Assembly (NCBI RefSeq): GCF_965363235.1
Contig: NC_134846.1
Location: 72,142,724-72,206,723 of the forward strand
Direction: 5' to 3'
Length of the DNA stretch: 64,000 nt
Origin: Mytilus galloprovincialis
Taxonomy: Eukaryota > Mollusca > Bivalvia > Mytilida > Mytilidae
Shown: positions 3,523 through 46,600 of the stretch, in pieces
How the letters are laid out: each line of letters opens with the position of its first letter
How positions within the stretch are numbered: the first letter of the stretch is position 1
Program-made: the position numbers and the translations under genes
The notes under the pieces: generated by a model
The model's database searches: none
Told to the model about the DNA's origin: nothing
The model's input: only the letters and a program-made list of their open reading frames with translations

Positions 3523-6500
3523 CTGCAAATCATATTACATGTCTTTTAAATTATGAAAAACATTTCTACATTATTTTTTCTGGCTCTTGAGATTTTTTTG
3601 ACTCACGAGTCATATAACTCAATTATCTCTTCACATTCAAGCTCAAAATTACTCTTTAAAATTATATTATAGTTCAACGGTAAATATATAAAAATATATT
3701 GTTTGCATTTATTTATGATGACTGAGATGTGAACTTTACTCATGCAATTTAGATATATCTTTTACTAAACAAATGCTGAACTGAAAAACATAGGTAATCA
3801 ATTATACAAATTACAAAGTGTTTCTTGTTCTGCACAGTATGTTAAGTAATTTAAAACCAGAAAAGCAAAACAAATATTGAGTTATAAACTCATATGGAGT
3901 TATAAACTCATATGGAGTTATAAACTCATATGGAGTTATAAACTCATATGGAGTTATAAACTCATATGCAATTCTAATTTCAAAGTCAATGGAGGAGCAT
4001 GGACTATTAATCATAAGAGATATTAGATGGTAACCAGACCTACTCCACTGAATCCTTGTCATAGAATAAATTACTGGCAAAAATTGAAATGTAAATCTTG
4101 CATTATTGCATTAAAAAAATAAGGAGATGTGGTATGTAATAAATAGAAATTAATACATGGCCTTTTCCATATCAGCCTGAGTATCATCCCGAGACCCCCA
4201 TATCAGCCCAAGACGGAGTCGAGGTGTTGATATGGGTCAAGGGATGATACCCAGGCTGATATGGAAAAGGTCATGTATTAATCGCTTTATCATATACTTC
4301 CGACAATAGTTTTATGTAAGGCAAATAAACAAATGCAATAACTAAAACAGTCAAAAACTTTATAAAGAAAATAAATTATGAATCAAATATACTATAATTG
4401 TCCAACAACAGCATCACTACCTCCTTATATATGTATGGAAACATTTCCTATAGAGGCATTTTGAAAAATTTAAAGTTTGGAAAAGTTTTATGATCATTAC
4501 TACTCCATGTTTGTTGTACTCTAAAATGATTCATAATTGTCAATGGCATTTGTTAGCAAGTACTAAACTATCCCCACAAAAGTTCCCGTATAGTTTGACG
4601 TCGTCATAAAAAACATCTGACGTTACAATGGAAAAGTAAACAACCAATATCGGAAACACCGGAAGTAACTTGCAAGAGAGGCACTATTATGGGTTTTGTG
4701 CACGAGATGCACCTGATATGGTTTATCAGCCCGGGTGGGAAATTATGGCTTGTGTACTTTCGCTCATTACACATATGCAAAAGCTATCATATTAATGCTA
4801 AGTATATGATAAACAGTAATAAAAATGCATTAAAGTCTGAATTTGCAAAGTATTGATGATAATGCTTATATTTATATCAATTATTGCAGCTATATGGTAA
4901 ATTCTTATACCAAACTGGACATTACCAGAAAAGAATATGCAACCACACTGACAACAATAATAATGTCAATCATACTTGAAAACAATAACCAAGTCTTTTT
5001 CTTGCACATAATTCATTGATTGCATGTGACCCAATTAAATAAAAAAATATTCTTACCGAAGCTGTGTGCCTTTTCTTTGGTTCTTTTCTTCCCACTGGAA
5101 AGCCAGTGTTGGCCTCCCACACAATCATGTAGCCATCTTCAGATCCTATAGCTACATAAAGTCCATCTTTACTTTGTTCCACTGCTAGACTTGTCCCTTC
5201 ACACGATTTACTCAAGTGATCGGCTCGATACATAAATCCAAGTTTTACTCCCTTTGTCACTCTCTGATCAGATTTTCCAGTAGGAATATCCCAGAACACA
5301 ACCCAACGACGAGTGGTGACCATCATGACATTTCCTTGATAGGGGCAGACAACTTCTCCTAGATGTGGACTCTTTGTCAGAATTCGATTACATGGCATTA
5401 GTCCTCCTGTAGCTTGTGTTTTGTCTATAGCATAAAACCTGTGTTTATGAGACTGTGGTAAAAATCCTCCACCTTGTTTACGCCATGATGTTTGGATATC
5501 AGCATATTCTTTTTCAAGAATTTTAACTCTTAGTATGAGATAGCGTTCTGAATCATTTATGGACAGGTCTATTCTCTCATAAGCCAGCTTCTGTTTCAAC
5601 AGAAATGATGTTTTTACTTTGAGAAGACTGATATCTATTATTTCAATAAAATGAGTCTTTTCACAAGTTTTCAAGACATATAATGTCTTATGATCTTTTC
5701 CTTGGCAAAAACTTTCTACATGTCTGATGCTCATTTTCTCCAATCCTTCTTCAAAATCATACACTTTTAAAGTATGAGCTTGACTGTCTAAAACAATACA
5801 CATTGAGTTTATAGTTGCTGATACTTTGTGACCAGTGATTCCCATGTAGATTTTATCTTGAAGTTCTACCTTATCCACGGACCAGATCCTCAAATTTTTG
5901 TCTTCTGAAGCAGTTATGATGCAGTGTCCTTTGAGGTCAACATCAAAACCAACAATATCCTTCTGTGCCAGTAACTCTGAACCCCCACCACTGACCTCTG
6001 TTCTAGATGATTGATCACCATCAGTATTAAGTAATGTTGTCAGCTCCCAAATTTTTGCTGTATTCTTTTTGCTCACTGTGACAACTTGATCTTCAAGCAC
6101 TGCCACTTTCATGATTTCATTTTTTTCAGCCTTGAAATCCCCAAAGTGTTTCCCTGTCTGTGCTTTGTACATAATTATCTGCCCTTGGTTGTCTCCAATA
6201 AAGACTAAATCGTTGATCCAGCTCACTCCAAAGCTTGTTATAGTATTATTTATGTTTAACTGTTGGACAACCTCCCCATTAGAGATGTCATACACAGCTA
6301 CAAAGCCTTGTTCCAACCAAATGGCAGCCAGTGCATGGGAATGTGCTACAGATAACTGCAGTAACTTAGAAGAGCAGTCCTCAGTGATAGTTATTTTGAC
6401 CTCATCTAGGTCAACGACTGTCAAAGTTCCATCTGTTTCTCTATTACTACTTCCTACAAGCAGGTTCTCATTAAAACCAACTGCAGCAAGACCTCTGGTA

Positions 6501-9500
6501 AAAGGATGACTAGTTTTCACCATTTTTCCATTTTCTGCAGCACCAACCACATGGATTCTAATAACTCCATCTTTTTCATTTTCCTTTTCACTAACAACAG
6601 TATTTATAGTGAAAATAATCTTTAAATTGTCAATACTTGTAGTGATAATGTTAGAAACATCATTTGCCTCTTCTCTCAAGGTGATGAAGTCAACTTTCTT
6701 GAAGCTGTTTGTATCCAATATTAGAACATCACCATTGCTAAATAATATTGTCAAATGTAAGAAATCAGTACTGAGACAAACTATTGTGGGATACATCTCT
6801 TTCCCTAGATCTTCAAAAATATCAGCAAACTTCTTCATGTTTGTAAGTTGATTATGTAAATGGAATATCTGAAGGCTGTCCTTGCCTAAGTTTATTACTC
6901 TTTTCTCAGAATGATCCATTATGGGTGGCATTATTGGCTTGAAGTCTTTGTCATGGCTTAGTTGGTTAACATCATTATTAATGGCATCATAAACTAGGTA
7001 CCCTTTTTCATCATCATCTTCCTCTTTCACATTTGTCATCAAAACTGACTCTGAACCACTTGAAATGATATCGTTGACATCGTCATAGATCTTCAAAAGA
7101 GCTGATGAAGCATCTTTTCTTGGTGCAAGACATGGGAATACTGGTATAAGTAAAGGAGTCTTACTGGAGTAGACTGTATCTTTAGCTTGCTGCAGTAATT
7201 CCTTTAGATATTTCTGATCCTCATCTACATGTAATTGTGAAAGTAGATTAATTGCAAGGTTTGTCCCACTTTCATTTCCTGATTTTGAGACAAGGAAGTA
7301 ATTTCTTAATAGAGCCACCTCTTCATCATCTGTTTTGTCCAAATATTCTGTCATGTCGTCCACCAAGGTTGATAAAGGCAGGGCTTGCATTCTCATTGTC
7401 AAGAAATTCAAATTACAAAAGCATTCTGACTTGGCAATTGAAGGATCTATCTGATCTCCAGCATGGGTAATGTGATATGGGGCAGCTATCAGTTTTCTTT
7501 TATTCTTCACAACAAGTGGTTGTTTTGTGACTTGTCTGTCTGCATTCTCCACTGTCAGTTTTCGCCTGTGAAGAGTTATGTCCCTTTGAATACCATCATT
7601 GGCAATGAAATATTCTGCTAAAACCTTGTGTAATTTTTTGCCTGCACTCCCTGTTGCATATCTTCCACGAGCTGTCTCAATGAACTGCCTATGATACCAG
7701 TTCAGTGTTGTTTTACCAAATGATCTTCTCTCTACAATATATTCTCTGAGATCATATCTTATCCTTGCTACAATTACTGGTGGCATTCGTACAATGCAGG
7801 GGACTGGTGGATTATGATAGCGGTAAATATCATCTAGAACTTCATCATCACAAGATAACACATCCTCCCATTCAATATCAGAAATACCATTGTAGGCAAC
7901 TGTAATGTAACCTAGAGCATGGCTTATCAAAACTTCTCCAAATTTCTTTTCCATGTTGTCAAACAGCTGGTTAATGGCCCCTTGTACAGAATCTTGCAAA
8001 ACAAGAGCATGATCTAGTGTGTATGAGTTCCAGCTGACAGCCTCGTCTAAGATAAGTTTTAGAAACAATGGACCTCTGCAATTTCTGAATGCGCTAATTA
8101 TCTGCTTAGTTTGAATTTGTGTAACAGCTCTCTCTTTTTTTGCAAGATATTTGTCAATCATTTCAAATCCTGTATCATCAGGTAAAGACGGAACTTCTAC
8201 AAAGTTTGTAGTATCTGGAAACAGTTTCTGTAATGTGTCTAAAATTTCATGTTCCCTAGGTAATGTAGATACAATTATCCTCAAGTTTGATGGGAGGATT
8301 ATAGGCAGCCAATTTAACAAGTAGGAATCATCTTTTGCTGTAAGCTGATCTAGAGAGTCCAAAAGAATAACAATTGGCTTTTTCACCTTGCTTGACACTC
8401 GACGTAAGAATCTTGGCATATATTCTATTAGGTTTTTCATGTTTTTGTACCCAACTGGCTCCATCAATAGTTTTGCACAGTCAGCAAGTTGTCCACAAAT
8501 TCCATATAGTACATCATATATGTTCAAACTATAACCAGATGTGCCTAAAAATCTTATGATTCCAATGTGAGGCTCCATTTTAAACCATTCTGGCAGACTC
8601 TGCAAGATTTTGGCCATAACAGATGTTTTTCCAGCACCTGACGGAGCATACAGAATAAGAGGCCTTCTGGACTTGTCCTTTAGAATATATTCTTTGGCCT
8701 TCTCCAAAACATCAACTCTACCACAGAAAGTCTCGCATTTTAGTTTACAAAAGTGTTGATGATGCAGTACTTCTTGATAGTCTGAGTAATATTCTGAATC
8801 TCTAATCAGACCTTTCTGGTCTTCTCTGGCCTTATCAATAAGTTTGCAAATGTCTTCGATAAGATCAGCACAAAGACGCCTGACATAATCACGTTGCTCT
8901 GCATGTTTTTCAGGATCAATTCCACCACTATGCCATTTAACTTGATACTTATGGATTCGGCCAGATTTCTTCAATACAGATGGAATTTGTTGTCTTACTT
9001 TCTCTCTTAGCAACTTTGCTTCTTCATCAATTACCATCTAAAAGTAGAGTTTTCAACAATATTGTATTAACCACTTGTACTTTAACATTTTAAATACTTT
9101 GTACTAATGATTCTTAAAAGTTAGAATATTTCATAATACTGTGGATTCATTATTATTTGTTGGATATCAATTTTCGTGGATTTCGTGGGTAATGGTGAAC
9201 CACGAAAAAGTTCAACAAATGACAAATGTTCTTTAGGCTTGTATGCAGACTTTCACAAAACCACGGAATCAAACATCAATGAAAAATGTATGTTTTCCTC
9301 AATCCACGAATATTGGTACCCAAGAAATTAAATGAGTTTTACTTAAATATTTTAATTACATGGTGCATTTGATGATTCATAACTCAGGTACAAAGAATTA
9401 TTTGTCTTTGAAACTTTCAATATTTGAATAAAAAAGAAAATACATTACAAGTGAAATTGATATGTAAAATTGAGAATGAAAGTGGTGAATATGTCAAAGA

Positions 9501-12500: not shown

Positions 12501-15500
12501 ACAAACTTTTAAGGAAAATGCACAAAAAAAATCAATTAGTTTGAGTGCCACCATCCCCTCACTTAATAAATTTTGGAAAGCCCTTTGTTTGTTAAAGCAA
12601 AAAAAAATTGAAATGTTGGTAGTAAAGTCTTGATTGAAAGTTATTCAACTTACAATGAAATTAGGTCCTAGAGAAAGGTTCTGACAATTTTCTACTTCTA
12701 GCAAACAAATTTTCTCTACAGAATGGTCGTTTTGGCTATCTTCTGTTACACCCCAACGCATATCTACTATCTGAAAGTCGAGGTCATATTTGGCACAATA
12801 TTCCTTCAGGAGTGGATTCACATCTCTGACAATGGCATTTCTTTCTGCTCTCATATCTGAATAATAAACATTAAAATAATGATGTCTTCCTTTTGCATAA
12901 AATCTGAAGGCTATATACTAACCCTCAATGGATAAGTAGGGGCTCAACAGTAAACCATATGTAAACTTATAAGATTGTTCCTTCTGACTGTCAACTATTT
13001 TATACTAATGGTATTGCAGTGGGGTTTAAGGAGAACTTACGGCAATATTTCTGATAAACATTTATCACTTTCATTCAAGTATTTATTGATTACTGCATAT
13101 TTATTTTTTAAAGCATACATGGAAGTATAGCATGAATTTAATAGAGTCATTGGTAAAATAGGTAGAAGCTTGTTAAGATGTTTTGACATATGCTGACATA
13201 ATAAATCAAATGTCCATTTGGGGCCACATAAGTTTAATTGAGGTCTCTGTAAATTAGCTTTGGTGGTGATATTTTAAAAAGTAAATTGTCAAGTAGGACA
13301 TAAAAAATGTTCTTACGATTTTTATTGACGAGCATTTTTTTTCAAAAATCTGGACATTTGGGTTATTTTATTGTTCCCAAGAACACACCTTTAACTAAAA
13401 GTCAAGCTCTTTTTTGACAAAATATTCTTTTATAAGTCTCTTCGTAAACGGCATTGTTTTCAGCCAGTATTTTTTATATAAGTGCATTTCTTTTTGTATA
13501 GGCAAACAGTTCAGTATTTAATTTTGCATTTTAGAAGAGGAGAACATATTTCATATTAATAAGGATTTTTATTTACATGATTTTCAAAAGAACAATAAAT
13601 ATAAACAGTAAATACAGCAATAGGAATCTAATACATGGTTCATATTCAAGTTGAGTCTTGTAATTTCAGAGATGATTTATTATTCTAGTCAGACAGCCAT
13701 TTCTTCCATTCAATAGAAAGCATGTTCATATAGACCTTACAGACATTATTCATCTTCTTAGGTCAGACTTAAGAAAAGATGAATAGAAATTCTTGTAAGT
13801 TCTGTGCAATATATGAGGCGCCATGACTTACATCAAAGGTTGTTTAGTGCAATGCTCTAACAAGTTCTAACATCCACTACAAAATTTATAGCTTCTGAAT
13901 GTCTTGACTAAAGAATGAAGAAGTCTATGAAACTTTTCCCTTAATAACCTCCGGCTGCTTTGCAGAAATACATATCAGAAAATAAGAAAGTTTCAAATAT
14001 TCTTTTCTGATTATGAAAGGAGGAAGGTTTGACAAATTATTTATCCCTCCCCCCCTTTTGTTAGTTTTATTTTACAAGCTACATGAGTGAGATTCTTACC
14101 AGAAAATGTTGAGCTCATGAATATCCTGACTGTAGAGTGAGGTAAATTAGGTAGATCATCCAAACATCCTTCCAATAACTTCTCAAACTTAGCTTCAGCT
14201 TTCTTCATCTGTTCTTCTGTTGTTTTGTCTGAAATAAATCCAGCAAACTTATATTTGCATGTATTAAAGCATTACACTGAAGCTAATCAAAATCTAAAAA
14301 TTACATAAATAGAACACAAATGGATTTATTTCTTCTTACAAGTATATCTTTTAAGAATATTCAATGTATATTTGGTCAAAAATACTAAAGTGCATTTTAC
14401 TTTTTGGTGCCAAGTGAGATACCATTATACTCTCTCTGAGTGAGATACCATTATACTCTCTCTGAGTAAGATACCATTATACTCTCTCTGAGTGAGATAC
14501 CATTATACTCTCTCTGAGTGAGATACCATTATACTCTCTCTACTTGTAACAAGCTGAGTGAGATACCATTATAATCTCTCTACTTGTAACAAGCTGAGTG
14601 AGATACCATTACATGTATACTCTCTCTACTTGTAACAAGCTGAGTGAGATACCATTATACTCTCTCTACTTGTAACAAGCTGAGTGAGATACCATTATAC
14701 TCTTTCTACTTGTAACTACCATTATACTCTCTCTACTTGTAACTACCATTATACTCTCTCTACTTGTAACTACCATTACACCCTCTCTACTTGTAACAAC
14801 ATTTTGTATGCTTTCATTTTTGTAAATGGTGTTTTTTTTTACAACTGCACGTCATTTGTTATAATTGATGATTGAAAAGTCACTCAAATTCTTTATTTGC
14901 CTCAAGCTCTGTGCACTGATTTTCCTTCCTATGATAAATGGTACTGCTGATTTCCTTTCCAAACACTTTCAAATTATTGTGAACAGATTTGATAACTTGA
15001 GTGCATTTTGACAAATTTCAGATTCCCAGTGTAAAAATGGTATTATCTCCCCTTGCTACTATATCTCATACCTTTCAGCCACAGTTACATGATTGTTTGT
15101 TCTTTGAGTTATTGAGTCATAAATTTTTGATTATTACTCATTCTACAGCACAGGATCAAAAATTGAAAAATATTTTGTTTCTGTTTTGAAATAATTCTAA
15201 ATTTTTGTAAGATTAGAGCATCCATTTTTTTTTATATTAGTGTAACTCTTTTACTTAATTCAAAGTTGATAGTATACAATGTAGGGATTTAGACCATTAT
15301 GCTTATGAGATATGAAGTAAAATATTTTTTTATTGTATTGAATCTTTTATTATGAGGGGGGATGGACCTTTATCAGGTGTTTTCAAGCTCGGGATTTCGG
15401 GATTGATCCATTCAGGATCCAGGAATTCTTTTTTCAAATTTCGGGATGTCAGGAATTAAATTTCCCTCAATTTGAGACTTCAGGATTTCATGTTTTTAAG

Positions 15501-28681: not shown

Positions 28682-31600
28682 CTGCATAATAAACATCAAA
28701 ACTTATCATTTGATAAATTAAAGGCACAAATGAAATTATTTATCTTATAATTAACATGAAAATGTGTCCAGAAGGCAGATCATGTCTCACTCACATCATC
28801 ACACTTTTAGTTCAGTCAATCATTTAATTGGGACCAAAACCATAATAAATGGCTTAAAAGTAGTATTCTAGGGCAATGAAACCAATAAGAGTTTATTTTT
28901 GTCATTTTGACTTATTTGTAGATTATATTTTGGTGAGCTCTTGGCTTTTACAATTTCTGTCATAGTATATACTAAAAGTGCAAAAATATGTAAAAAAATC
29001 GTATTTGAGGGGAAAAACTCTTAAAGAAAGTCAAAGGTTGATTTTGTCCATGTGACTTGTTCGAAGATCTGATTGTCCTGGTCATTTTTCCTGTTCAGAA
29101 TTTTTCTGTTTTTTATTTTTTTTTATCCAAGATAAAAACACTTTAAAACTTGGTAAAAATTGTTATATAGGACAAAGACTCAATAATGAACTGTCTAAAG
29201 TTTATGAAAATTTCAAAGAAAATAGAACTTTACCTCCTGAGTATTGTACGGATGTCAGTTATTTTTTCATTGAACAGTTTTGGTTTTTGAGGTAAAGCCC
29301 AAAATTATGAAATTTAAAAAATAAAATTACATTTCAGGGGCAATAACTCCAAAATTATTTCTCTAAAAAAGAAAAATTTTGAATTTTTGAGATATGAGCA
29401 GAAAAAAGCATTTTACCCCTATGTTCTTATTTAAGCAAAAGCAGCCATATTTGTTGATGGACCAAATCCTTGGATACAGTTTAATATAAGATACCCTAGG
29501 GACCATTCAGGTACAGTTAAGTAACATTTAAAGATGTTTTCATACAAAAATAAACTGTTATCACAGAGATATGTCTCACCTTTTTGTTATTTTGATAATG
29601 CAAATCTTGAAATTAAAATATTAATACATTAACATGTAAGTTATGCAAATATTCAAAGTCAATAAATCATGACAGTCACTGAAAGTACATGGCTACACAA
29701 TCTCCATGGAAATGAGATATGCCAATGCCAATAAAAACAACTGCATACCAAATACAATTGACTTATTGTAAGTCGATCCCTTTAACAGTCAATGAGCCAT
29801 GATGAGAGGGTAGGGATGTATACTAACCATAGTAATGATACTTGCAAATGCCAATAAATTTGCATACAAAATATCAGTGACTTAACATTAGCAGTTCATC
29901 TTAAGCTGATCTAATCACAAACTAATATATGTAAACTGAAAAAAATTTCAAAGTCAATAAACCATGACTGAGGTGGAAAGTCCAAATAATCACCATGCAA
30001 ATGAGATGTGCCAATGCTTATACAACTGCATACCAAATATCAATGACCTACCACTTGTGGTTAACTATAAACTAGACCTAATCACAATCAAATACATTGT
30101 TGACACCCCACAGGAAACAGCATTATTCTATGTCTAGCTTTTTGACTCCATAAAAGCAAGACTATAAGAACCAGCAATTAGAAAATTATATTTTTAAAGT
30201 TATTCAAGATCAAAGAGTTTAACCTACCGAAGCTGAATGCCTTTTCTTAGGTTCATTTCCTCCTGCAGGCAGACCTGTTTTGGTTTCCCATATAAGCATG
30301 TATCCCTCCTCTGAACCACCTGCAACATAAAGACCATCTTGGCTACATTCCATATTTAATATATAGGGAGGTTCATCCAAATGTTTTGGCTGATACAAAA
30401 ATCCAAGCTTTTCTTTCTTGATAATTCTATAGTCACACTTGCCAGTAGGAATATCCCAGAAACAAACAAAGCGACGTGTAGTGATCATCATTACGTTGCC
30501 TTTATATGGCTGTATAATCTGTCCTAAATGTGGAGTCTTGGTCAAAACTCTATTGCATGGCATTAGACCACCTGTAGCTTGGGGTAGATCAACAGCATAA
30601 AACCTGTGTTTATGAGATTCAGGCATAAACCCAGCATTGCGCCAACTTTGTTTTTGCCATGCTGCTAAAATGTCTTCATATTCTTTCTCATTAACTTTCA
30701 CCCTTATTGCTAAAAAACGTTCAGAATCATTCAATGCGAGATCAATTCTGTCAGTAGTAATATTTTGTTTCAACAGGAATGATTTTTTAATTTTAAGAAG
30801 TCCTACATCAATGATTTTTATAAATTGGTTGTTTTCTGCAGATTTCACTAGATACAATGTCCTACAATCTTTTCCTTGGCAAAAATTTAACACATTGTGG
30901 GTGACCATATTTTCTGCTCCTTTTTTAATGTCCACTATTTTCAGGGTCTTGGTAATTCTATCCAAAACAATACACATTGAGTTAATTGTTGCTAATACTT
31001 TTTGACCAAGGATTCCAATGCGGATTTTATTTTGTAGTTTCACATTATCTACAGACCAGATCCTCAGATTTCTGTCTTCTGAAGCGGTTATTATGGAGTG
31101 TCCTTTTAGGTCAATATCAAAACCAACAATACCTTTCTGTGCCAACAAATCAGATCCCTCTGTACTGACTTCCACAATGGATAACTTATTGACATTAGCT
31201 GTAAGTAATGTTGTCAACTCCCAAACCTTAGCTGTATTTTCCTTGCTCACAGTAACAACTTGATCTTCAAGTACTGCGACTTTGATGATTTCATCCCTAT
31301 CAGCTTTGAAATTTCCAAACTGTTTCCCTGTCTGAGATTTGTACATAATTAACTGTCCTTGGTTGTCACCAATGAAAACTAAATCATTCATCCAGCTCAC
31401 TCCAAAGCTAGTTATAGTATTTATTACATTCAATTGTTGGACAACCTCCCCATTAGAGATGTTATACACAGCTACAAAGCCTTGTTCCAACCAAATGGCC
31501 GCCAGTGCATGGGAATGTGCCACAGATAACTGCAGTACTTTAGAAGAGAGATCTTTATCAATAGCTATACTGGTATCTTCTAAGTTTATAACCGTCAAAG

Positions 31601-34600
31601 TTCCTCTATTTTCCCTATTACTACTTCCAACAAGTAGACTTTCATTATATCCAACTGCAGCAAGGCCTTTAGTAAAAGTATGGTTAGTGTTTACTATCTT
31701 TCCATTGTCTGTACTTCCAATAGCATGGATTCTGACACAACTACTTGTATTCTTTCCCTTTTTTTCTGCACTTATACTCAAGATAACCTTTAGATTTTCT
31801 TCATTTGTAGTTATGATGTTTGAAACACTATCTGGTTTTTCTACCAGTGTGATCAAGTCAACCTTTTTAAAACTGTTTGTATCTAGCGTTAGCACATCAC
31901 CATTGCTGAACAGTATTGTTAAGTGTAGGGAATCAGTACTGAGACAGCTCATTATTGGATAACATTTCTTGGTTCCAATATCTTTACTAACTTTAGAAAA
32001 CATATACTGGTTTGACAGCTGATTGTGTAGATGGAAAGTCTGCAAACTATCTTTCCCTAACTGGATTACTCTTTTCTCTGACTTATCAAGTATGGGTAGC
32101 ATTATGGGTTTGAAATTTTTATTTTGATCCAATTGGTAAATTTCATTATTGATTGCATCATAAATTGAATAATATGCTCCATCTGAATCTTTGACTCTAG
32201 AATTTGTCATCAAAACTGATTCTGTACCATGAGAAACGATATTATTTATATCATTATAGGTCTTCAATAGAGCTGTTGAAGAGTCTTTTCTTGGCGCCAA
32301 ACATGGAAATACAGGGATAAGTAGTGGAGATTTACTGCAGGACACTGTATCTTTTGCTTGTTGAAGTAATTCCTGAAGATATGGTTGATTCTCAGCAATG
32401 TATAACCTTGACAGTAGATTTATGGCAAAGTTGATACCATATAAGTTTTCTGATTTAGAGACAAGGAAGTAATTTCTCAAGAAGGCCACCTCTTCATCAT
32501 CTGTTTTGTCCAAATATTCTGTCATGTCATCCACCAAGGTTGATAAAGGCAGGGCTTGCATTCTCATTGTCAAGAATTTCAAATTACAAAAGCATTCTGA
32601 CTTGGCAATTGAAGGATCTATCTGATCTCCACCATGGGTAATGTGATATGGGGCAGCTATCAGTTTTCTTTTATTTTTTACAACAAGTGGTTGTTTTGTG
32701 ACTTGTCTGTCTGCATTCTCCACTGTCATATTTCTTCTGTGTAGGGTTATGTCCCTTTGAATACCATCATTGGCAATGAAATATTCTGCCAATACTTTGT
32801 GTAATTTTTTGCCTGCACTGCCAGTTGCATATCTTCCATGAGCTGTCTCAAAGAATTGCCTATGATACCAATTCAGAGTTGTTTTTCCAAATGATCTTCT
32901 CTCTACAATATATTCTCTGAGGTCATATCTTATCCTTGCTACAAGTACCGGTGGCATTCGTACAATGCCAAGGACAGGCGGATTATGATAGCGGTAGATA
33001 TCATTCAGTGCTTCGTCATCACAGGATAACACATCCTCCCATTCAATATCAGAAATTCCATTGTAGGCAACTGTAATGTAACCTAGAGAATGGCTAATCA
33101 AGACTTGTCCAAATTTCTTTTCCATGTTGTCAAACAGCTGGTTTATGGCTCCTTGTACTGAATCTTGCAAAACTAAAGCATTATCTGAAATGTAAGAACT
33201 CCAATTTACAGCCTCATCTAGGACCAGTTTAAGGTACAAAGGCCCTCTGCAATTTCTAAATGCATTTATGATTTGGTTAGCTTGATTCTGAGTAACAGCT
33301 CTCTTCCTTTTTGCTAGATATTTTTTCGTCATTTCAAATCCTGTATCATCTGGAAGTTTAGGCAGTTCTATGAAGTTGGTGTTATCTGGAAACATTGTCT
33401 GCAGAGTGTTCAAAATTTCATGTTCCTGTGGTAATGTTGACAAAATCATCTTTATGTTTGTTGGTAGGACTGTTGGCAGCCATTTTAATATAAAAGCATC
33501 ATCTCTTGAAGACAGCTGATCAAGAGAGTCTAGAAGAATAACAATTGGCTTTTTCACCTTGTTTGACACTCGACGCAAGAATCTTGGCATATATTCTAGC
33601 ATGTTCTTCATATTTTTGTAGCCTACTGGTTCCATCATAATTTTAGCACAGTCAGCAAGTTGTCCACAGAGTCCAAAAAGTACATCATATATGTTCAAAC
33701 TGTAGCGAGATGTGCCTAAAAATCTAATAATTCCAATGTGAGGCTCCTTCTTGAACCACACTTGTAAATTTTCCATAATTTTGGCAATAACACATGTTTT
33801 CCCACCACCTGAAGGAGCATGCAAAATAAGAGGCCGTCTAGATTTGTCCTTGAGAATATATTGTTTGGCTTGCTCTAAAACATCAACTCTACCACAGAAA
33901 GCCTCACATTTTAGTTTACAAAAATGCAGATGATGAAGTACTTCATTATAGCTCATGTAAAATTCCCGTTTTCTTATTAGGTTTTTCTGGTCTTCTCTAG
34001 CTTTATCAATAAGTTCAGAAACATCCTGAATGAGATCATCACATAGCTGTTTGATGTATGAAGAATGATCTTTATGTTTTTCAGGATCAACTCCTCCTTC
34101 ATACCAATTAAGATTATATTGATGAATTCTTTTTGATTTCTTTAAGGCAAATGGAACTTTTTCTTCAACCATTTTCCCTCTTAGTAACTTGACTTGATCA
34201 TTTATTATCAACTGAAAAGATATTTTTAATGCAGTATGTTAAAAAGGGTATTGAATGCTTTTTGAGATCTCATATACATACAAACAAGAATGTGTCCAAA
34301 GTACACAGAGCGTGACAGATGCCCCACTTGAACTATCATTTACTATATTCACAGGGTTGTAAAATTAGAGTCAAAACTCTAATTTGGTATTTAAATGAGA
34401 AAGATCATATCATATGGAACATGTGTACTAAGTTTCAAGTTGATTGGACTTCAACTTTATCAAAAACTACCTTAAAATTTACCAAAAACTTTAACCTGAA
34501 GTGAGACAGATGGACAAATGAATGGACGAATTAACAAATGAACGGACAGACAGACGAACAAATGGACACGCATAATGCCCCTAGGTGGGGCCTAAAAATT

Positions 34601-37600
34601 TGAAGACCACATAAAGGCATATATGTCTAAGCCAAACCCAGATACCAAATCAATATTGATGAACTTAAACAATGAATAAAAACAAGACATATCAAGCTAA
34701 TTAAGTTAAGAATGAAGAATGATATAGGGATATACAGTTGATATTGTTTGTATTGACACCTTTAGCAGATGAACCAAGATAAACTAAATTGCTATAAAGA
34801 TAACTGTAGCAGATAGACATTTGATTCATAATTTGTTGATATCTACTTAATATGGTCAATGTCATCGATATCAAAACTTTATGGTGTTTTGTACAAAGTC
34901 CATAAGGGTAACCTATTGCTTAATTTGTATTGTTTACTAAATAGATATGAATTATTGATAATGAAAGTGAGTTAAAAGTTCATTGACTTTCTCTATTCAA
35001 GAAATTCATCAAAAATGTACTCCTAATTATAAACATTGGTTAGTTTAATGTTATAACAGTAGAATTTACCTTGCCCTCCTAATTATAAACATTGGTTGTT
35101 TTAATGTTTTTACAGCAGAATTTACCTTGCCATTTTCCATGTTAGTATCAAAATATCTCTTTACAGCTGTGATATCTCTACTTTTGTCAATGTCTAATCC
35201 CAACAATATTCTTTGGTAGACACTTGTGTGCATTTCAGGTTTATCAGCAGTCAGAATTCCTTTCTTTACTTCTAATTCAGTAACTGAAAGAACAATGTTG
35301 ATATAAACAAAAATAAATCTTCCCTGGTACATAAATTATTATAAGAGTTAAAAAAATAATTTTGCTTCTTGTACTTGACATAGTGACTGTTTGACTATGG
35401 AAAGTCATAAAAACCAAAGGTATTTGAATGAAAGAAAAAGATGACAAATGAGCAATTTCAACCCATTCTAGTTCATATTCTAATACATGTATAAGATGCC
35501 ATAAATTCATCAAAAATTACATCTTCAATGGTTTTCCCTTTTGATTAGAAATACACTAGTAATTTTTGGGGCCCTTTATAGCTTGCTGTTCTGTGTGAGC
35601 CAAGGCACCGTGTTGAAGACTGTACTTTGATCTATAATGTTGGTTTTTTTTACAAACTGTGACTGGAGAATTGTCTCATTGGCACTCATACCACATCTTC
35701 TTATATCTATTATTGGAAATAATTACCTGATTTAAAATAATTATGAAGTTTCTCTTCACTAAGTTGTGCTGCATTACATTGCATTACTGCTTGTCTTAGA
35801 ATATTTTGTAGAAGCATGAAAGTTTTCTCCCAACCAAGTGTGTCTTTAGCTTTCAGTTCTTCACATCCAACAGAATGATCACCATAAAATGTAAACTGTG
35901 ATCTGATTGGCTGAAAAGGAAAATATTTTTCTCCAAATTATCTAATTAGAATAAAATAAGATGAGTTGGTACATTTTGTATATGTCAATGTGACAGCAAC
36001 CCAATGACATAAAAAAAAACACCTAGAGGTCAACACACAGTTTTCAACAATATGTCTTTCTCTAAATTGTCCTTAGTCTAAGAAACAAGTGATTGCATTG
36101 AACAGATATGATAAAAAATTGCAATCAACAACAAATTCTACTAATGAATAAGCTAGAAGCTCTAAAGAGCCTGTGTCGCTCACCTTGGTCTATGTGCATA
36201 ATAAACAAAGGACACTCATGGATTCATGACAAAATTGTGTTTTGATGATGGTGGTGTTTTGTAGATCTTACTTTACTGAACATTTTAGCTGCTTACAATC
36301 ATCTCTATCTATAATGAACTTGGCCCATTAGTTTCAGAGGAAAATATTTTGTAAAAATTTACAATAAATTTACGAAAATTGTTAATAAAAATTGACTATA
36401 AAAGGCTGTTCACAGTATATCTCTATCTGTAATAATATTGAAGATAATAAACCAATAACTGCCACATTTTCTTATACACTACCTGTAAAATATATTTGGG
36501 TGGTTTAGCATTTTCATCAAGTCGATACCAAATATCCAGCAATGCAGCGTTCTCTGCTTCTTTCTCTGCAAATGTTTTTATAATTTCAAACTCTTCCTTC
36601 TCAATTTCTGTAGGTATTGGTGTAAAACCATATCTGTCTCCTGACAATAGCTATTATAAATAAAAGACAAACAACCAATAAAAATATACCTCCTATGCCC
36701 CCAAAGACAATTACCCAGTATTTAATTGGGCTGGATAAGCTAAAGTATTTTCAAAAGATATATGTTTTCTTGCATTTCTATATTCATGAAACTATATGCT
36801 TTAAACTCTATTTAATTATATTTAAAAAGGAGGTACAAGGCATTCAAGTGATTTTAATGAATGCTGAGTGATAGGATTCCTTTGTCAAATCAAATTATCT
36901 AAGTTATCTCCCCTTATATAGAATAGTTTTCAGACTTTTTGAATAAATCAAAACTTATTTCATAAAATCTCATAATTTTCTCATTCAAAACTAAAGCAAG
37001 GAGAAGACATGATAAGCCTTTCAGTGCGATATGATAAAATAAATATCTCTTCAGAATTTTACTTACAATAAAGTTAGGACCAAGAGAAATCTTCTGACAA
37101 TTTTCTACTTCCAACAAACAAATTTTCTCAACGGAATGGTCAATTTGGCTATCTTCTGTTACACCCCAGCGCATGTCTACAAACTGAAAGTCAAGGTTAA
37201 ATTTGGCACAGTACTCCTTCAGCAGTGGATTGACATCTCTGACAATGGCATTTCTTTCAGATCTCATATCTAGTCAAAAAAAGAAGATAAAACTTCAACC
37301 TCATGTCAGTTTTATTTAGATTATTAAATTATCTAAATATTACTTATCTATCAATCAAATTTTACAATTCAAGAGCATCAACTCTGAGTTAATGCAATGG
37401 AAAATGGTGAAAATTGAACCTGAAAAGATTTATGTGAAAAATAACAATATAACAAAATCATCAGATCTTAGCTCATAGCCAACTTAGTTATCATCCCAAA
37501 ACCTTTTAATTATACCATGCTTACACAATTCTATAAAAATCTAAAGGTTATTTGAGGCAACACTTATAATTCAACTTGACAAAATCAGATATCAATATGG

Positions 37601-40600
37601 GAGTAACATACCAGAAAATGTTGAGCTCATGAATATCCTGACTGTAGAATGAGGTAAATTAGGTAGATCATCCAAACATCCTTCTAACAACTTGTCAAAC
37701 TTAGCTTCAGCTTCCTTTATTTGATCTGTTAGTTTGTCTGAAAATGAAAGCATCAATAAATATGTAGGACTCTAAAGTGCGATGGGGACGCTAAAGTACA
37801 ATGGTCACCTAAAGTGCGAAAGTCTACGCTTAAGTCTGATGCCTCCATACGCTAAAGTCTGATAGTCCACGAAAGTATAGACGTATGAAGCGTAGTTGTA
37901 TTACGACGTTAACAGTCGCTTATACTAACCAAAAATGAACATGCCGGAAGATGAAATAAATAATGGAAGCAAACAGATTCAAATTAATGTTTACGTTTAC
38001 GTTAAAATATTGTCGATTTTATTGAAGAGTATAAACGTTGGTAAAATAAAGGCACACGTTTTCAAGCGTAAATCATAAATTGTCCATTAAAACATCAATG
38101 TGTACATACATTGTAGTAAAATATAACATGAATTAATACTCGCTATGAAAAAGGGGAAAGCTTGAACAACAACCCCTTTCTCTTGCATTTAAATTAAAGC
38201 TTGTACAAATAGATTTTATTTATTCCGACAATGACCGAATTTTGTATTTGCAACTGACAAGGGGATGTGTTAACATTAATAGGATGTGTAAACGGCAAGC
38301 TACCTCAGTTATCCAATACGACCCTTAAATTAAAAGCGTATCGCATTATATGTTATATCATAGCAAAATAGATTTAGCAAAAAGACTTGTTTTTAACATT
38401 AGTGCCCTTGAACCTTTCTCTTTTGTTCTATCACACTTTAGCGTGCTATACCATCGCACTTTAGCAAACAAACAACCATCGTACTTTAGCGTAGACCATC
38501 GCACTTTAGCATGACTATCCCACTTTAGAGTACAACAAATATATTTTGGATTCTTCTTATGTAACAAGATTCAAGGGTATACTTAAGTGGTATAAAATAA
38601 TACAGTTGTAGTTGTACATGTTCAAAATTATATGAATAAAAGACTATAAAAAAAATTATACTAGAATTTTGCATAAAAATGGAGAATCTGGGTTTCTCTG
38701 TGTTAAAAAATAAAAAAATAAATCTACATATTTGATATAATGACAGCTATAATATAGCCTATATCAGTATATATAAAACCATTAAAAAATACGCTTAAAA
38801 ATTCCTTTTCAGTACAAATTTTGGTACTTTTTTCTAGTAACTATGATCTTCATCCTAGACATAGGGGTTTCAAAATCAATAGGGATCTTTTTCTAATCAT
38901 ACATTACTATATATTTAATTAAGGTTGCAATTCAATTAATAAAAAGCATTTTTTATTATCCAGAAACCACTTTCATACACACATTTTTTGTCTACTTTTA
39001 GTAACTTTGATTTTGGTGTTAGCCTTAGTTACCTCATAATTAAATTTTGTTAATATTGAATATACCTGATCTTGTTTCTTCCTTCTTTTCATTGTTCTGT
39101 AAGGATCTTTAAATACAGAAAAGATAATAAACAAATATTTTCAAACCATTTCAAAACACAGAAGAAAGATGGACTACTTGTAAATAATAAAGCTATCAAA
39201 TATTTTATATTGGTCTTGCAGACAAAAAAAAGAAAGTATCCCAAATTCTATTACTTTGATTAAAAAATGGTAACCCATAAAACAAATTGATAGATGTGCC
39301 ATTGTACCAATGAATTGAGTGATGCACCTTATGAATATGTGATGCATATTAAGAATTGAGTGATGCACCTTATGAATTGACGGATGCACCTTATGAATTG
39401 AGTGATGCACCTTATGAATTGTGGGAAGCACCTTATGGATTGTGGAATTCACCTTTTGAATTGTGTGATGCACATTAAGAATTGAGGGATGCACCTTATG
39501 AATTGAGGGATGCACCTTATGAATTGAGTGATGAACCTCATGAATTAATGGATGCACCTTATAAACTGAGGGATGCACCTTATGAATTGAGGGGTGCACC
39601 TAAGAAAATGAAGGATGCGCTTTATGAATTGGGTGATGCACCTTATGAATTGAGGGATGCACCTTATGAATTGAAGGGTACACCTTATGAAATGAGGGCT
39701 GTACCTTATGAATTGAGGGATGCAACTTATGAATTAAGGTATGTACCTTATGAAATGAGGGCTGCACCCAATGAATTGAGTGATCACCTTATGAATTTTG
39801 TGATGCACTTTATGAAATGAGGGCTGTACCTTATGAATTGAGGGTTGCACCTTATGAATTGGGTGATGCACCTTATGAATTGAGGGATGCACCTTATGAA
39901 TTGAGGGGTGCATATAATGAATTGGATGATGCACCTTATGAATTGAGGGATGCACCTTATGAATTGAGTGATGAACCTCATGAATAGAGAGCCGTGGTGT
40001 AGTGGTTAGTGCATCGGACTACTAACACAAAGGTTCCTCGTTCGATTCCCGTTTGGGATGAAAATTTCAGGAACTCAATTTCCGGCTCTCCCTTGACACC
40101 ATCTGCGAGTATGGTCTTGAGGAAACGATGATAGTCCGTCGGAAGGGGACGGTAAATGGCTGGCCCATGTTAAGAGAGAGCCATATCTCTTCCACGTTAA
40201 AGACACCCTTGTAGATTTCAAAAAAGAGTAGGCTAATGCCGCTACAAGGCAGCACTCGCACCAAAAATGGGAAAGGGATTAATATAAGTTGCAAAACTTG
40301 TTTCCCAATCCACTATAAATAAATATGTTTAAACTAACCTAATGAATTAATGGATGCACCTTATGAATTGAGGGGTGCACCTTATGAAGGATGCACCTCA
40401 TGAATTGAGGGATGAACTTCATGAATTGAGAGATGCAAACTATGAATTGAGGGATGAACCTCATGAATTGAGTGTTGCACCTTATGAATTGAGGGATGAA
40501 CCTCATGAATTGAGTGTTGCACCTTATGAATTGAAGGATTCACCTTATGAATTTAGGGCTGTACCTTATGAATTGAGGGATGCACCTTATGAATTGAGGG

Positions 40601-43600
40601 ATGAACCTAATGAATTGAGTGATGAACCTCATGAATTAATGGATGCACCTTATAAACTGAGGGATGCACCTTATGAATTGAGGGGTGCACCTTAAGAAAT
40701 GAAGGATGCATCTTATGAATTGGGTGATGCACCTTATGAATTGAGGTATGCACCTTATGAATTGAGTGGTGAACCTCATGAATTGAGGGATGCACCTCAT
40801 GAATTGAAGGATGCACCTCATGAATTGAGGGATGCACCTTATGAATTGAAGGATGCACCTCATGAATTGTTTGAAGCACCTTATGGATTGTGGGGTGCAC
40901 TTTATGAATTTATGGATGTACCTTATGGATTGTAGGGTGCACCTTATATTGAGGGGTGCATCTTGTGAGTTGAGGGATGCACCTTGTGAATTGAGGGGTG
41001 CACCTTAAGAAATGAAGGATGCACCTTATGAATTGGGTGATGCACCTTATGAATTGAGGGTTGCAACTTATGAATTGAGTGATGAACCTCATGAATTGAG
41101 AGCTGCACCTTATGAATTGAGGGATGCACCTTATGAATTGAAGGATGCAACTTGTGAATTGAGGGATGCACCTTGAGAATTGAGGGATGCACCTCATGAA
41201 TTTAGGGCTGTACCGTATAAATTGAGGGATGCACCTTATGAATTGTGGGGTGCACTTTATGAATTGAAGGATGCACCTCATGAATTGAGGGATGCACCTT
41301 ATGAATCAAGGGATGCACCTTATGAATTGAAGGATGCACCTTATGAATTGTTGGAAGCACCTTATGGATTGTGGGGTGCACTTTATGAATTTATGGATGT
41401 ACCTTATGGATTGTGGGGTGCACCTTATGAATTGAGGGATGCACCTTGTGAGTTGAGGGATGCACCTTATGAATTGAGGGATGAACCTCATGAATTGAGT
41501 GATGTACCTTATGAATTGAGTGAAGCACCTTATGGATTGTGGGCTGTACCTTATGAAATGATGGATGCACCTTATGAATTGATGCATGAGGTAAAAATAT
41601 TAATTCCCATGCAATTATGATGGTTCAGGTAAAAAAGAAGAAGAAGAAGAAGAAGAAGAAGAAGAAGAAGAAGAAGAAGAAGAAGAAGAAGAAGAAGAAG
41701 AAGAAGAAGAAGAAGAAGAAGAAGAAGAAGAAGAAGAAGAAGAAGAAGAAGAAGAAGAAGAAGAAGAAGAAGAAGAAGAAGAAGAAGAAGAAGAAGAAGA
41801 AGAAGAAGAAGAAGAAGAAGAAGAAGAAGAAGAAGAAGAAGAAGAAGAAGAAGAAGAAGAAGAAGATGCTTTATTTCCATAAAATGGGCTCACAAGGAGC
41901 ATAATATAATATCATTGTAATATAATATTCTTTTACAAATATAATAAACAACACATAGTTACAAACACAAATAAGAAACAACAGTTATCACATATTAGTA
42001 TATATATAAAACCTTTGTCTCAGGCACACCTCTGGAAAGTAACAAAAAAGAATACTGTGAGTAGGCTAAATATATCTAGCTGAACTGCAAGAGGCACCAA
42101 GGGACGGTGCTATATGGCATGGTGGGTGCATATTAAAATGTGTATCGGGACATTAATGATATTGTAAGATATTGTAAGAAGTCGAACATAAATGGTATGT
42201 CATCCTCGTGCCTGGTGCAGAGGAGTCAGTACTATTTAAAGTGACACAACTGCAAGAGGCACCAAGGGACAATGCTAATTGACATGCCAAAGTGCACAAA
42301 TTACAAAAAAGATAAAATATTACCAGTTTAATAAAGAAAAATAATATCACAAACAAGAAGGTAATAGAACTTGTATGATGTGTCCTGTACCCCACCATGC
42401 CAACCTCGTGCCTAGTGCAGAAAGCCTGATTAAATATTTATCTTTTAAGTTATATTTTATCTTCATCAATTAACTCACAGACAGATATCAAAATATCAAG
42501 ATTCTCTACATTAAGAAGCCATATCAGTTTTTGACTAGGAATCAAATGCTTAAAGTTTGGGCATAGTAAGTCAATAGTGGAATTCAAATAATTTCTCTTA
42601 TCTTGTGATGATGTACATGAGACTAAAAAATGTTTTCATCATCAACTTCATTTGAGGTGCACCTGAGACATATTCTGTCTTGTCGGAGAGTACCCTGAAA
42701 GCGACCTTGTTCAATTCTTAGTCTGTGAGAAGAAATACGCAATCGAGTGAAATTTCTCCTCTGCTCAGGACTCAGGTGATTGTAATATAGTAAGGTATCT
42801 TTCAAGACCAAAATGAGTCTTAAAAGTGCTATAGCTACAAAGCTTCCCATCAGCACAATTATGCATTTGGTTTCTCCACTGTATTTCATAGTGCTCATAC
42901 AAAAACTTTTTAATTAAAATTTTGAATCTAAAGTTGCTTGCAAAGGTTAGACTGTCAACCCCATTAATTTTTTTTTGCAAATAGTTTAAAGATCCATACC
43001 AAGAGGGAATTTTTTATTCAAATAATAGCTTTGACTCTAAATATGCATCTTTTAGTAAGGGAAAGGATGAACCCAAATTTTCAAGCCGGTGCCAGTATCT
43101 GATCATAGATTTGGTGATATCAAAATGTAAAGGAAATCTCCCAAGTTCTGAAAGAGTGGCAAGGTTTGTTGCTCTTTTCCCCACACCTAGTAATAATTTA
43201 CAAATTTTCATATGTAATCTTTCTGAAAAAAGTTTAGGATAGGCTTGATCAACTGTAGAAGATATAAGTTAAAACATACTTCAAGATTTGTGGTGCAGGT
43301 TTTGTCACTTTTACTGTTGTTGGTTTCTTTATCATCATCGCTGTTCTCTATAACAGAAACAGTAGCATATTAATTTAAGATTTTTTATTTGTTTAATGAC
43401 ATCAATATAAAAGTTAGTAAATCATCTAAATCACTCATCTTTTGTGCACCTAAATGGGAATATTTTTTTCAACAGCAAAAATTATCCAATTCAAAATGAG
43501 GAAGCAACATGATCCATGTATTGACTTGTCAAAGATGAGACAAAAAATGATTTACACACTTAAGGTCAAGTTAGAGTAAATTGCTATGTCACAGATTTTG

Positions 43601-46600
43601 GCAATCTTTTTTCCAATTTATGCTCTTTCTCAACAAATGTTCACCTACTTTGAAAGAATTCAATCAATAATATTTTAGAAAAAAAAATAAAATAAATGCA
43701 TTATTTTTCCAATTATCATGTGTGTTCACCAAGCATAAGTTGTATGCAAAATGTTACTAAATCATATCTCTTTATTTCATATCAATTAAATAAAAAAATA
43801 AAAAAAATAAGTAAAGATCACATGAAACTTGTGAGATGCAAACATACTTTTTTTAATGAACAAAAAATACCTAACCTCATTGGATGACTTCTATATACAG
43901 ACTAAAGCCAAATAAACTGTTATCACAGAGATCACCGTGTATCATCGTACAGCGGATATAGGTACTAACCAAGCGGGCGTGAGCGATTTTGATCTTACAA
44001 GGTAACGAAAAATCTTTGTTTTGTTCACATAATATCAATGTGTACTTCAATCTAAACATAATTGCTGTTTTTAGAAATTATTTGGTCATAGGTTGATGAT
44101 TAGAGATGTCTCATTATTTTCCAAAAACAAGAGGGATTACTAAAAGCATGTGCAAATACTTGTAAGAGAAGTTGGCCCTCGTCTCATCCGATATAATTCT
44201 ATATTCATTGCAACTCTTTTTCTGATAGAAGCTAGGTCAATGTGTGTGTGTAATATAAAGTATGGCTGTTTCAATAATTGGCATTGAAATCTTTTATACA
44301 TATGTTATTTTTCGATATTTTATCCCTAAAGAAGCGTTGTGTACAGTGTTTAGCTGACCACATAAATCCTTAAGTACGGTGCATAGTTAAGTTGTTGTAC
44401 ACCGTACACAAAACTTTATTTTCATACTCGTTTATTACCCAAAAAGTTTCAAGGAATGAGTAGTCGCAGGTAGTTTTATGATAGGTAACTATTACTTTTG
44501 CCCTGTATTAGGTTTCTTTCAGATAAAACATGTAAATTTCGCAACAACTGTATCGAAATTGAAAGTTGGTGTTGACATTCACAACTATTTGCGCATGTAT
44601 AAGTTAATTGTTCTTATTAGAATATCAAAGTTGTTTTATGAATAGGAAAAAAATCGAAAATTATTTGGGAGCAGGAATTTCAAATGTTGAGAAATGTACA
44701 TTGAATATTGATAAATCAAAACATAGATTTTCGTTACCGTGTAAGGTCAAAATCGATCATGCCCGCTTGCTTAGTACCTATATCCGGTGTACTGATGATA
44801 CACGGTGGAGATATGTCTTGCTTTTTTGTAATTTTGATTATGCAAATGTCGAAATTAAAATAGCAATACTTCAACATGTTACACAAGTTAGGCAAATATT
44901 CAAAGTCAATGAACCATGACTGAGGTACATGGCTAATCAATCTCCAAGTAAATGAGATGTGCCAATTCTTATACATCGATACCAAATATCATTAATTATA
45001 AGTTGTTCTCTTTAAACAAACCAAAACATAAGCATTAACTTGTAAACTATGTAAAAGTTTCAAAGTCAATGAACCATGAAGAGGGGGTGGGGCTATATAA
45101 TCTCCATGGAAACGATACTTGCAAATGCCAATAAATGTAAATACCTAATATCATTGACCTAACATTAGCAGTTCATCTTAAACCGATCTAATCACTAACG
45201 AATGCATGTAAACTAAGCAAAAGTATCCAAGTTGATAGACCATGACTGAGGGAGCGGGGCCAAATATACTCCATGGAAATGAGATGCACTAACGTTTATA
45301 CAACTGAATAACAATCAATAATGGCCTGCCACTAATGGTTCCCCTTCAACTGACCTAATCACAAACTAATACATGTTAATTAAGCTAACTTTTGAAAGTC
45401 AATAGACCATGACTAAGGGGACGGAGCCAAATAATCTCCATGGAAATGAGAAATGCCCATTCTTATACAGCTGCATACCAAATATCATTGACCTTACACT
45501 AGTGGTTCCCAATAAACACACCTAATCACAAACTAATACATGTACATGTAAAATAAGCAAATGTTTCAAAGTCAATAGACCATGACTGAGGGGACATGGC
45601 CAAATTATCTCCATGGAAATGAGATGTGCCAATGCTAAGACAACTGTAAACCAAATATGATGACCTACAACTTGTGGTTCACCATAAAATAGATCTAATA
45701 TCACTAACTTATACATTGTTGATGCTGTCGCCACCACCCTGGAAATAGCATACCTATGTCTCTCTTTTCGACTCCATCAAGCAAGACAAAAAAGTCAATG
45801 AATACAATAACCTTGGTCTTGGTTATGGATCTGAGAAATTCAGATATACATACATTTGTATCATAAAACATAATGGTATACCTTGCCATTTATAACTGCA
45901 CCAAAAGATGATTTGTGCTTCAACACACCTGTAAGAACATAAAAAAAGTTTATCATGTGTTTTATCTAATTAACAAAAGGTTTTAATATTAGTTCTTTAT
46001 ACACATTATTTCATTCAAAAAATAAAGAATCTGAATTTCCAATGAAGTTCATCTCAGCAGAAAAATAAAAATGCTTGGAATACGAAATGTATTCATTATT
46101 TTTTAACAGTTGTGGTGTTTTTATTCTTAAGATAGATTCTCTCATATAGCTTTCTCATTTTCTTGCTGCAGCCAGTTTGTTTATTGAAATTACTATGCAG
46201 ACCATACTCATATTTGTCTTTTCCTTAAGTTATTTCCTGCTAAGCTATCTAACCTATATCTTGATGTGACCTGTGGTTGCCTTTATGTTTGTTTTGTTTC
46301 TGTGGTTTACAGTAAAACAGTTGTTCAAATTATGACAGAACTTAATAGATTGGTTTGACGAAAAAAATAATACAAAATATGTTGATTTAATAATGTAGAT
46401 ATACCGGTAGCTAAGATAGCTTGGCAGGGGAAAAAATGGCAACGTAGATAGGTCAAGATGATTTTAAGATTTTTCAGTATTTTTCTTCTTCATAATTTCA
46501 GCTATGCATCTACAGGCTGTAACAAGTAAAGAAAAACCTTCATATTACATAATAAAAGTGTTACCTGGCATGTTGGCAGACACAGGAGACTTCTTTGAAC

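Follow-up and report, generated by a model that had tools for sequence, protein, structure and literature searches.

An 875-bp insertion with CAC ends and 5-bp target-site duplications, a probable member of a MITE-like transposon family in Mytilus galloprovincialis

Genes and repeats in the window

The window, a 64,000-nucleotide stretch of Mytilus galloprovincialis DNA on contig C9, carries an NWD1-like gene on the minus strand, with a large coding exon at 30219-34238 and a further coding exon, placed by sequence, near 36914-37273. The latter has no Pfam match. Two large NWD1-like NACHT/WD-repeat exons, at 4970-9037 and 30219-34238, both on the minus strand, look alike by eye, and the exons upstream of them (near 12755 and 37168) are also similar; Pfam was run on the second large exon of the pair only (30219-34238). 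From sequence, this pairing suggests that the NWD1-like exons may have arisen by tandem gene duplication. A 21-bp minisatellite of approximately 108 copies, open in several frames, occupies 39310-41582 and is followed at 41635-41866 by 77 perfect tandem copies of AAG. Further along lies the feature examined here, an element of 875 bp inserted into a repeat.

Structure of the element and its empty site

The element spans 43933-44807 and is supported by its inverted arms and by candidate copies elsewhere in the genome. Its left terminal inverted repeat (43933-44023, plus strand) and right terminal inverted repeat (44717-44807, minus strand) are each about 91 bp long and share 90% identity, bearing out the initial annotation of an 875-bp element with long inverted repeats. 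The outermost 14 bp of the arms are identical (43933-43946 and 44794-44807), the 65 bp inward of these tips (43947-44011 and 44728-44792) match at 91%, and a local alignment of the two ends extends over approximately 110 bp. The longest stop-to-stop frame that lies fully within the element has 61 codons; a frame of 103 codons extends beyond it.

The insertion is flanked by GAGAT on the left (43928-43932) and on the right (44808-44812), the duplicated target that had been proposed. Host-repeat sequence is found on either side, as 23 bp on the left (43910-43932) and as a longer stretch on the right (44808-45716) that includes a 167-bp tandem unit from 44899 (44899-45716). A second copy of the host repeat, at 29548-30097, contains the empty target site: its junction reads cacagagatatgtct without interruption at 29562-29576, and the counterpart of the left GAGAT lies at 29566-29570. 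The left 23 bp are identical between the two host-repeat copies (43910-43932 and 29548-29570), and the right side shows 72% identity over approximately 500 bp, so the claim that a related copy of this dispersed repeat keeps the empty site is confirmed at 29548. The insertion and its 5-bp duplication are directly visible, because the second copy is continuous through the site. Immediately flanking the tips are T on the left side and, read inward, C on the right side; since these two bases differ, the duplication is exactly 5 bp long. Empty site and flanking bases thus agree in fixing the ends and the duplication to the base, as had been stated.

The initial annotation also placed both host-repeat copies in introns of one gene, which we could not establish: no exon was seen above 43.9 kb in long open reading frames and one motif scan. 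The BIV160 satellite was considered as the identity of the host repeat and set aside, the BIV160 primers printed in PMC5139131 being unlike the host repeat by eye.

A multicopy family with 5-bp target-site duplications

A search of the animal's own genome (1.38 Gb) returned 471 first-look candidates, 40 of which were scored and the best 30 fetched, a sample that favours intact ends and under-represents older or broken copies. Among these 30 best-scoring copies, 26 are flanked by an exact 5-bp duplication and none by a duplication at any length from 6 to 10 bp (0/30 at each length). When the flanks were re-paired at random in 2000 trials, exact duplications averaged 0.9 and never exceeded 5, compared with the 26 observed. 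The exceptions are L006 and L007, which are without a 5-bp duplication, L027, in which four of the five bases match, and L005, whose duplication (ATTAT) is displaced 4 bp outward. Twelve further loci were measured; one that duplicated L004 and three without an aligned tip were dropped. The eight two-ended copies that were kept include six with an exact 5-bp duplication, one with four of five matching bases (L034), and one with none (L038). The 5-bp duplication, which the initial annotation had proposed looking for at other copies, therefore recurs in both the best-scoring and the further two-ended copies.

The left tip reads CAC in 28 of the 30 best-scoring copies (exceptions L014 and L026) and the right tip GTG in 28 (exceptions L005 and L009), and a genome-wide count gives 314 occurrences of the 14-base tip, compared with a single one of its reversed control. 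Divergence of the 30 copies from the family majority sequence is 2.5 to 3.4%, counted as substitutions. One member, L033 (L033:501-770), is a 270-bp internal-deletion form that consists of ends only and has its own AAGAA duplication. This form is compatible with the ends being sufficient for movement, although it may instead have arisen by deletion after insertion.

The family is fairly young, high-copy and well bounded. It combines inverted repeats, a duplication of fixed length and many non-coding copies, which together define MITE-like non-autonomous cut-and-paste transposons, and we are confident that the element in the window is one member of such a multicopy, non-coding family. By description, it resembles bivalve MITEs in general, which are likewise non-coding and high in copy number (PMC10294476).

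Search for an autonomous partner

The first 100 of the 314 tip places, all on contigs C1 to C5, were listed and sorted by hand into 20 pairs of neighbouring, opposite tips and 60 tips that stand singly. Eighteen of the 20 pairs span 751 to 941 bp. The 3,136-bp pair in L031 is an ordinary copy interrupted by 2.2 kb of inserted DNA, and the 270-bp pair is the internal deletion in L033. Seventeen single tips were read with 6 kb inward (L034 to L050) and 36 with 280 bp inward (L051 to L086); of the others, one lies in L032 and six terminate copies that had been scored before. Within these 100 of 314 tips, reading for coding relatives covered 53 single tips and three special loci.

No autonomous relative and no transposase with the family's ends was found among the loci read (100 of 314 tips listed). 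Of the 36 tips read for 280 bp, 34 align best with the family sequence over 161 bp or more; the other two, L061 and L085, leave the family after 85 and 97 bp, respectively. L085, at first a candidate for one end of a coding relative, was rejected: extended as L087, it runs inward into a different dispersed repeat, repeat copies L089 and L090 are continuous through the site, and L085 is a truncated family member within that repeat. Across L088, L089 and L090, the dispersed repeat carries the truncated family member at GTAAC in one copy and is uninterrupted in the two others.

At L037, L040, L044, L045 and the upstream tip in L032, similarity to the family ends within 31 to 72 bp. Pfam was run on four open reading frames of the fetched loci (L037, L048, L049 and L041). 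The long frame beside L037 encodes an acidic repeat protein that lacks any transposase domain, and the Tc1-like (L048), DUF3504 (L049) and zinc-finger (L041) frames lie outside the family alignment; all four were rejected as the partner. L044 and L045, approximately 70 kb apart on C1, are duplicated loci with a variant tip in which 31 bp are similar to the family end and the sequence then becomes unrelated. They perhaps represent another family with shared ends.

Searches outside the genome gave no match for three end patterns in viral contigs, no match for one end pattern in prokaryote genome contigs, and no match in phages or plasmids at the blastn level. For a repeat from an animal, such absence is no surprise and carries little information.

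Target choice

The 26 exact duplications have a GC content of 21%, compared with 35% in the 7 bases outside each side. When the six further duplications are included, GC is 20%, with A at position 4 in 23 of 32 and T at position 2 in 16 of 32. The resulting motif is RTNAY-like, a pattern read off after the fact. The fly Transib elements hopper and transib2 target CCANTGG, and hobo targets GTNCGNAC/NTNNNNAN, both as given in PMC3276498. The target of the family is nearer to that of hobo than to the Transib site, from which it differs in being AT-rich, even though hopper and transib2 share the 5-bp duplication length.

Candidate superfamilies

Several superfamilies are candidates for the enzyme. 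We consider it quite possible, if somewhat short of an even chance, that the family is related to the CACTA/EnSpm-Mirage-Chapaev elements or belongs to another group (Ginger2, P or an undescribed one) with CAC ends and a 5-bp stagger. Long inverted repeats are known in the P-group element Galileo. The CMCT clade, which includes Transib, mostly has CA..TG ends and 2- to 5-bp duplications, and the ends of EnSpm are CAC..GTG (PMC12730594); Ginger2 makes duplications of 4 or 5 bp (PMC10045372). The duplication lengths given for EnSpm/CACTA, 2 to 3 bp (PMC12730594), and for fly P-group elements, 7 to 8 bp (PMC3276498), argue against those two groups.

A hAT5-like transposase is, tentatively, the likeliest single superfamily candidate; the element would then be a non-autonomous hAT5 element moved by a candidate hAT transposase of the group with 5-bp duplications. 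Inverted repeats of approximately 90 bp are unusual for hAT, the ends of which are usually short, and weigh against this assignment. Duplications of 5 bp are the defining feature of the hAT5 group (Repbase Reports 2007, as cited in PMC12730594), and hAT is among the richest superfamilies in the bivalve genomes described in PMC10294476. As in hobo, the second base of the target is preferentially T and the penultimate one A, which parallels NTNNNNAN (PMC3276498). The likeness to the hAT5 group of PMC12730594 thus lies in the duplication and the target bases, whereas the long inverted repeats of the family differ. End sequences of hAT5 elements were sought in print and not found.

It is unlikely, though conceivable, that the mover belongs to a transposase lineage new to the combination of CACCGTG ends with RTNAY targets of 5 bp; this could be a relative of RAG1/Transib whose preference has shifted to AT-rich sites, or an undescribed group with 5-bp duplications.

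Doubtful in our view is a non-autonomous Transib/RAG-like element with heptamer-like ends cut via hairpinning by a RAG1-related transposase and with 5-bp duplications. This was the superfamily call of the initial annotation, and part of it stands: the tips are CAC, as in Transib in general (PMC7204232), and the duplications are 5 bp long in 26 of 30 copies. The terminal heptamer, CACCGTG, agrees with CACAGTG of the RSS at 6 of 7 positions and with CACTATG of ProtoRAG at 5 of 7 (PMC8289069), a likeness that makes the tip compatible with Transib in the wide sense. The annotation was also right that RAG-like elements occur in bivalves, since they are reported from oysters and mussels, with duplications that are invariably 5 bp where found (PMC7204232). 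Protostome RAG-like (RAGL) elements share the CAC tip and the 5-bp duplications with the family, and they too include non-autonomous forms (PMC7204232). Duplications of 5 bp cannot by themselves serve as a Transib hallmark, however, because they also mark hAT5 and occur in Ginger2.

The remaining comparisons run against the Transib/RAG-like assignment. The ends of protostome RAGL elements are given as CACTWMCAAACKTYKBB, with a conserved AAA at positions 8 to 10 (PMC7204232). Past CAC, the family matches this consensus at 6 of 14 positions, which is the chance level, as random sequence of this composition averages 6.0, and it reads TAT in place of the conserved AAA. No RAG1L or RAG2L was seen with the family's ends among the loci read. 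The duplications of ProtoRAG, Transib and RAG are GC-leaning (PMC8289069), whereas those of the family are AT-rich. Hundreds of copies would also be odd beside the single Transib recorded among 14,275 DDE/D open reading frames in one mollusc survey (PMC10294476). Apart from CAC and the 5-bp length, two features could be examined, and a RAG link is supported by neither; on present evidence an ordinary non-autonomous DNA transposon is more likely than a RAG1-related one. Were the transposase RAG1-related after all, the family would represent a RAG-like transposon with unusual target preferences that had multiplied to hundreds of copies.

Proposed mechanism of movement

Because no autonomous partner was found, we infer the enzyme that moved this MITE-like family. 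A DDE-type transposase encoded elsewhere would be supplied in trans and would bind the long terminal inverted repeats. It would then cut at CAC and attach the ends to target strands staggered by 5 bp. Repair of the gaps, itself a presumed step, would leave the 5-bp duplication that is seen in 26 of 30 copies and against the empty site. The copy in the window landed in a different dispersed repeat, one that contains tandem units. The fixed 5-bp footprint and clear ends provide a clean handle for finding the source transposase.

The family majority sequence contains seven ACGGT motifs, placed at the two tips, close to where each inverted repeat ends internally, and at three sites mid-element. 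In 2000 mononucleotide shuffles the mean was 0.88 and the maximum 5. Because it is over-represented in the majority sequence, ACGGT is a putative transposase binding site, and the enzyme would probably contact the motifs at the tips, near the inner repeat ends and mid-element. Of the seven motifs, five are preserved in the copy in the window. Its internal cluster of three ACGGT/ACCGT motifs lies at 44343-44405, where the first reads ACAGT.
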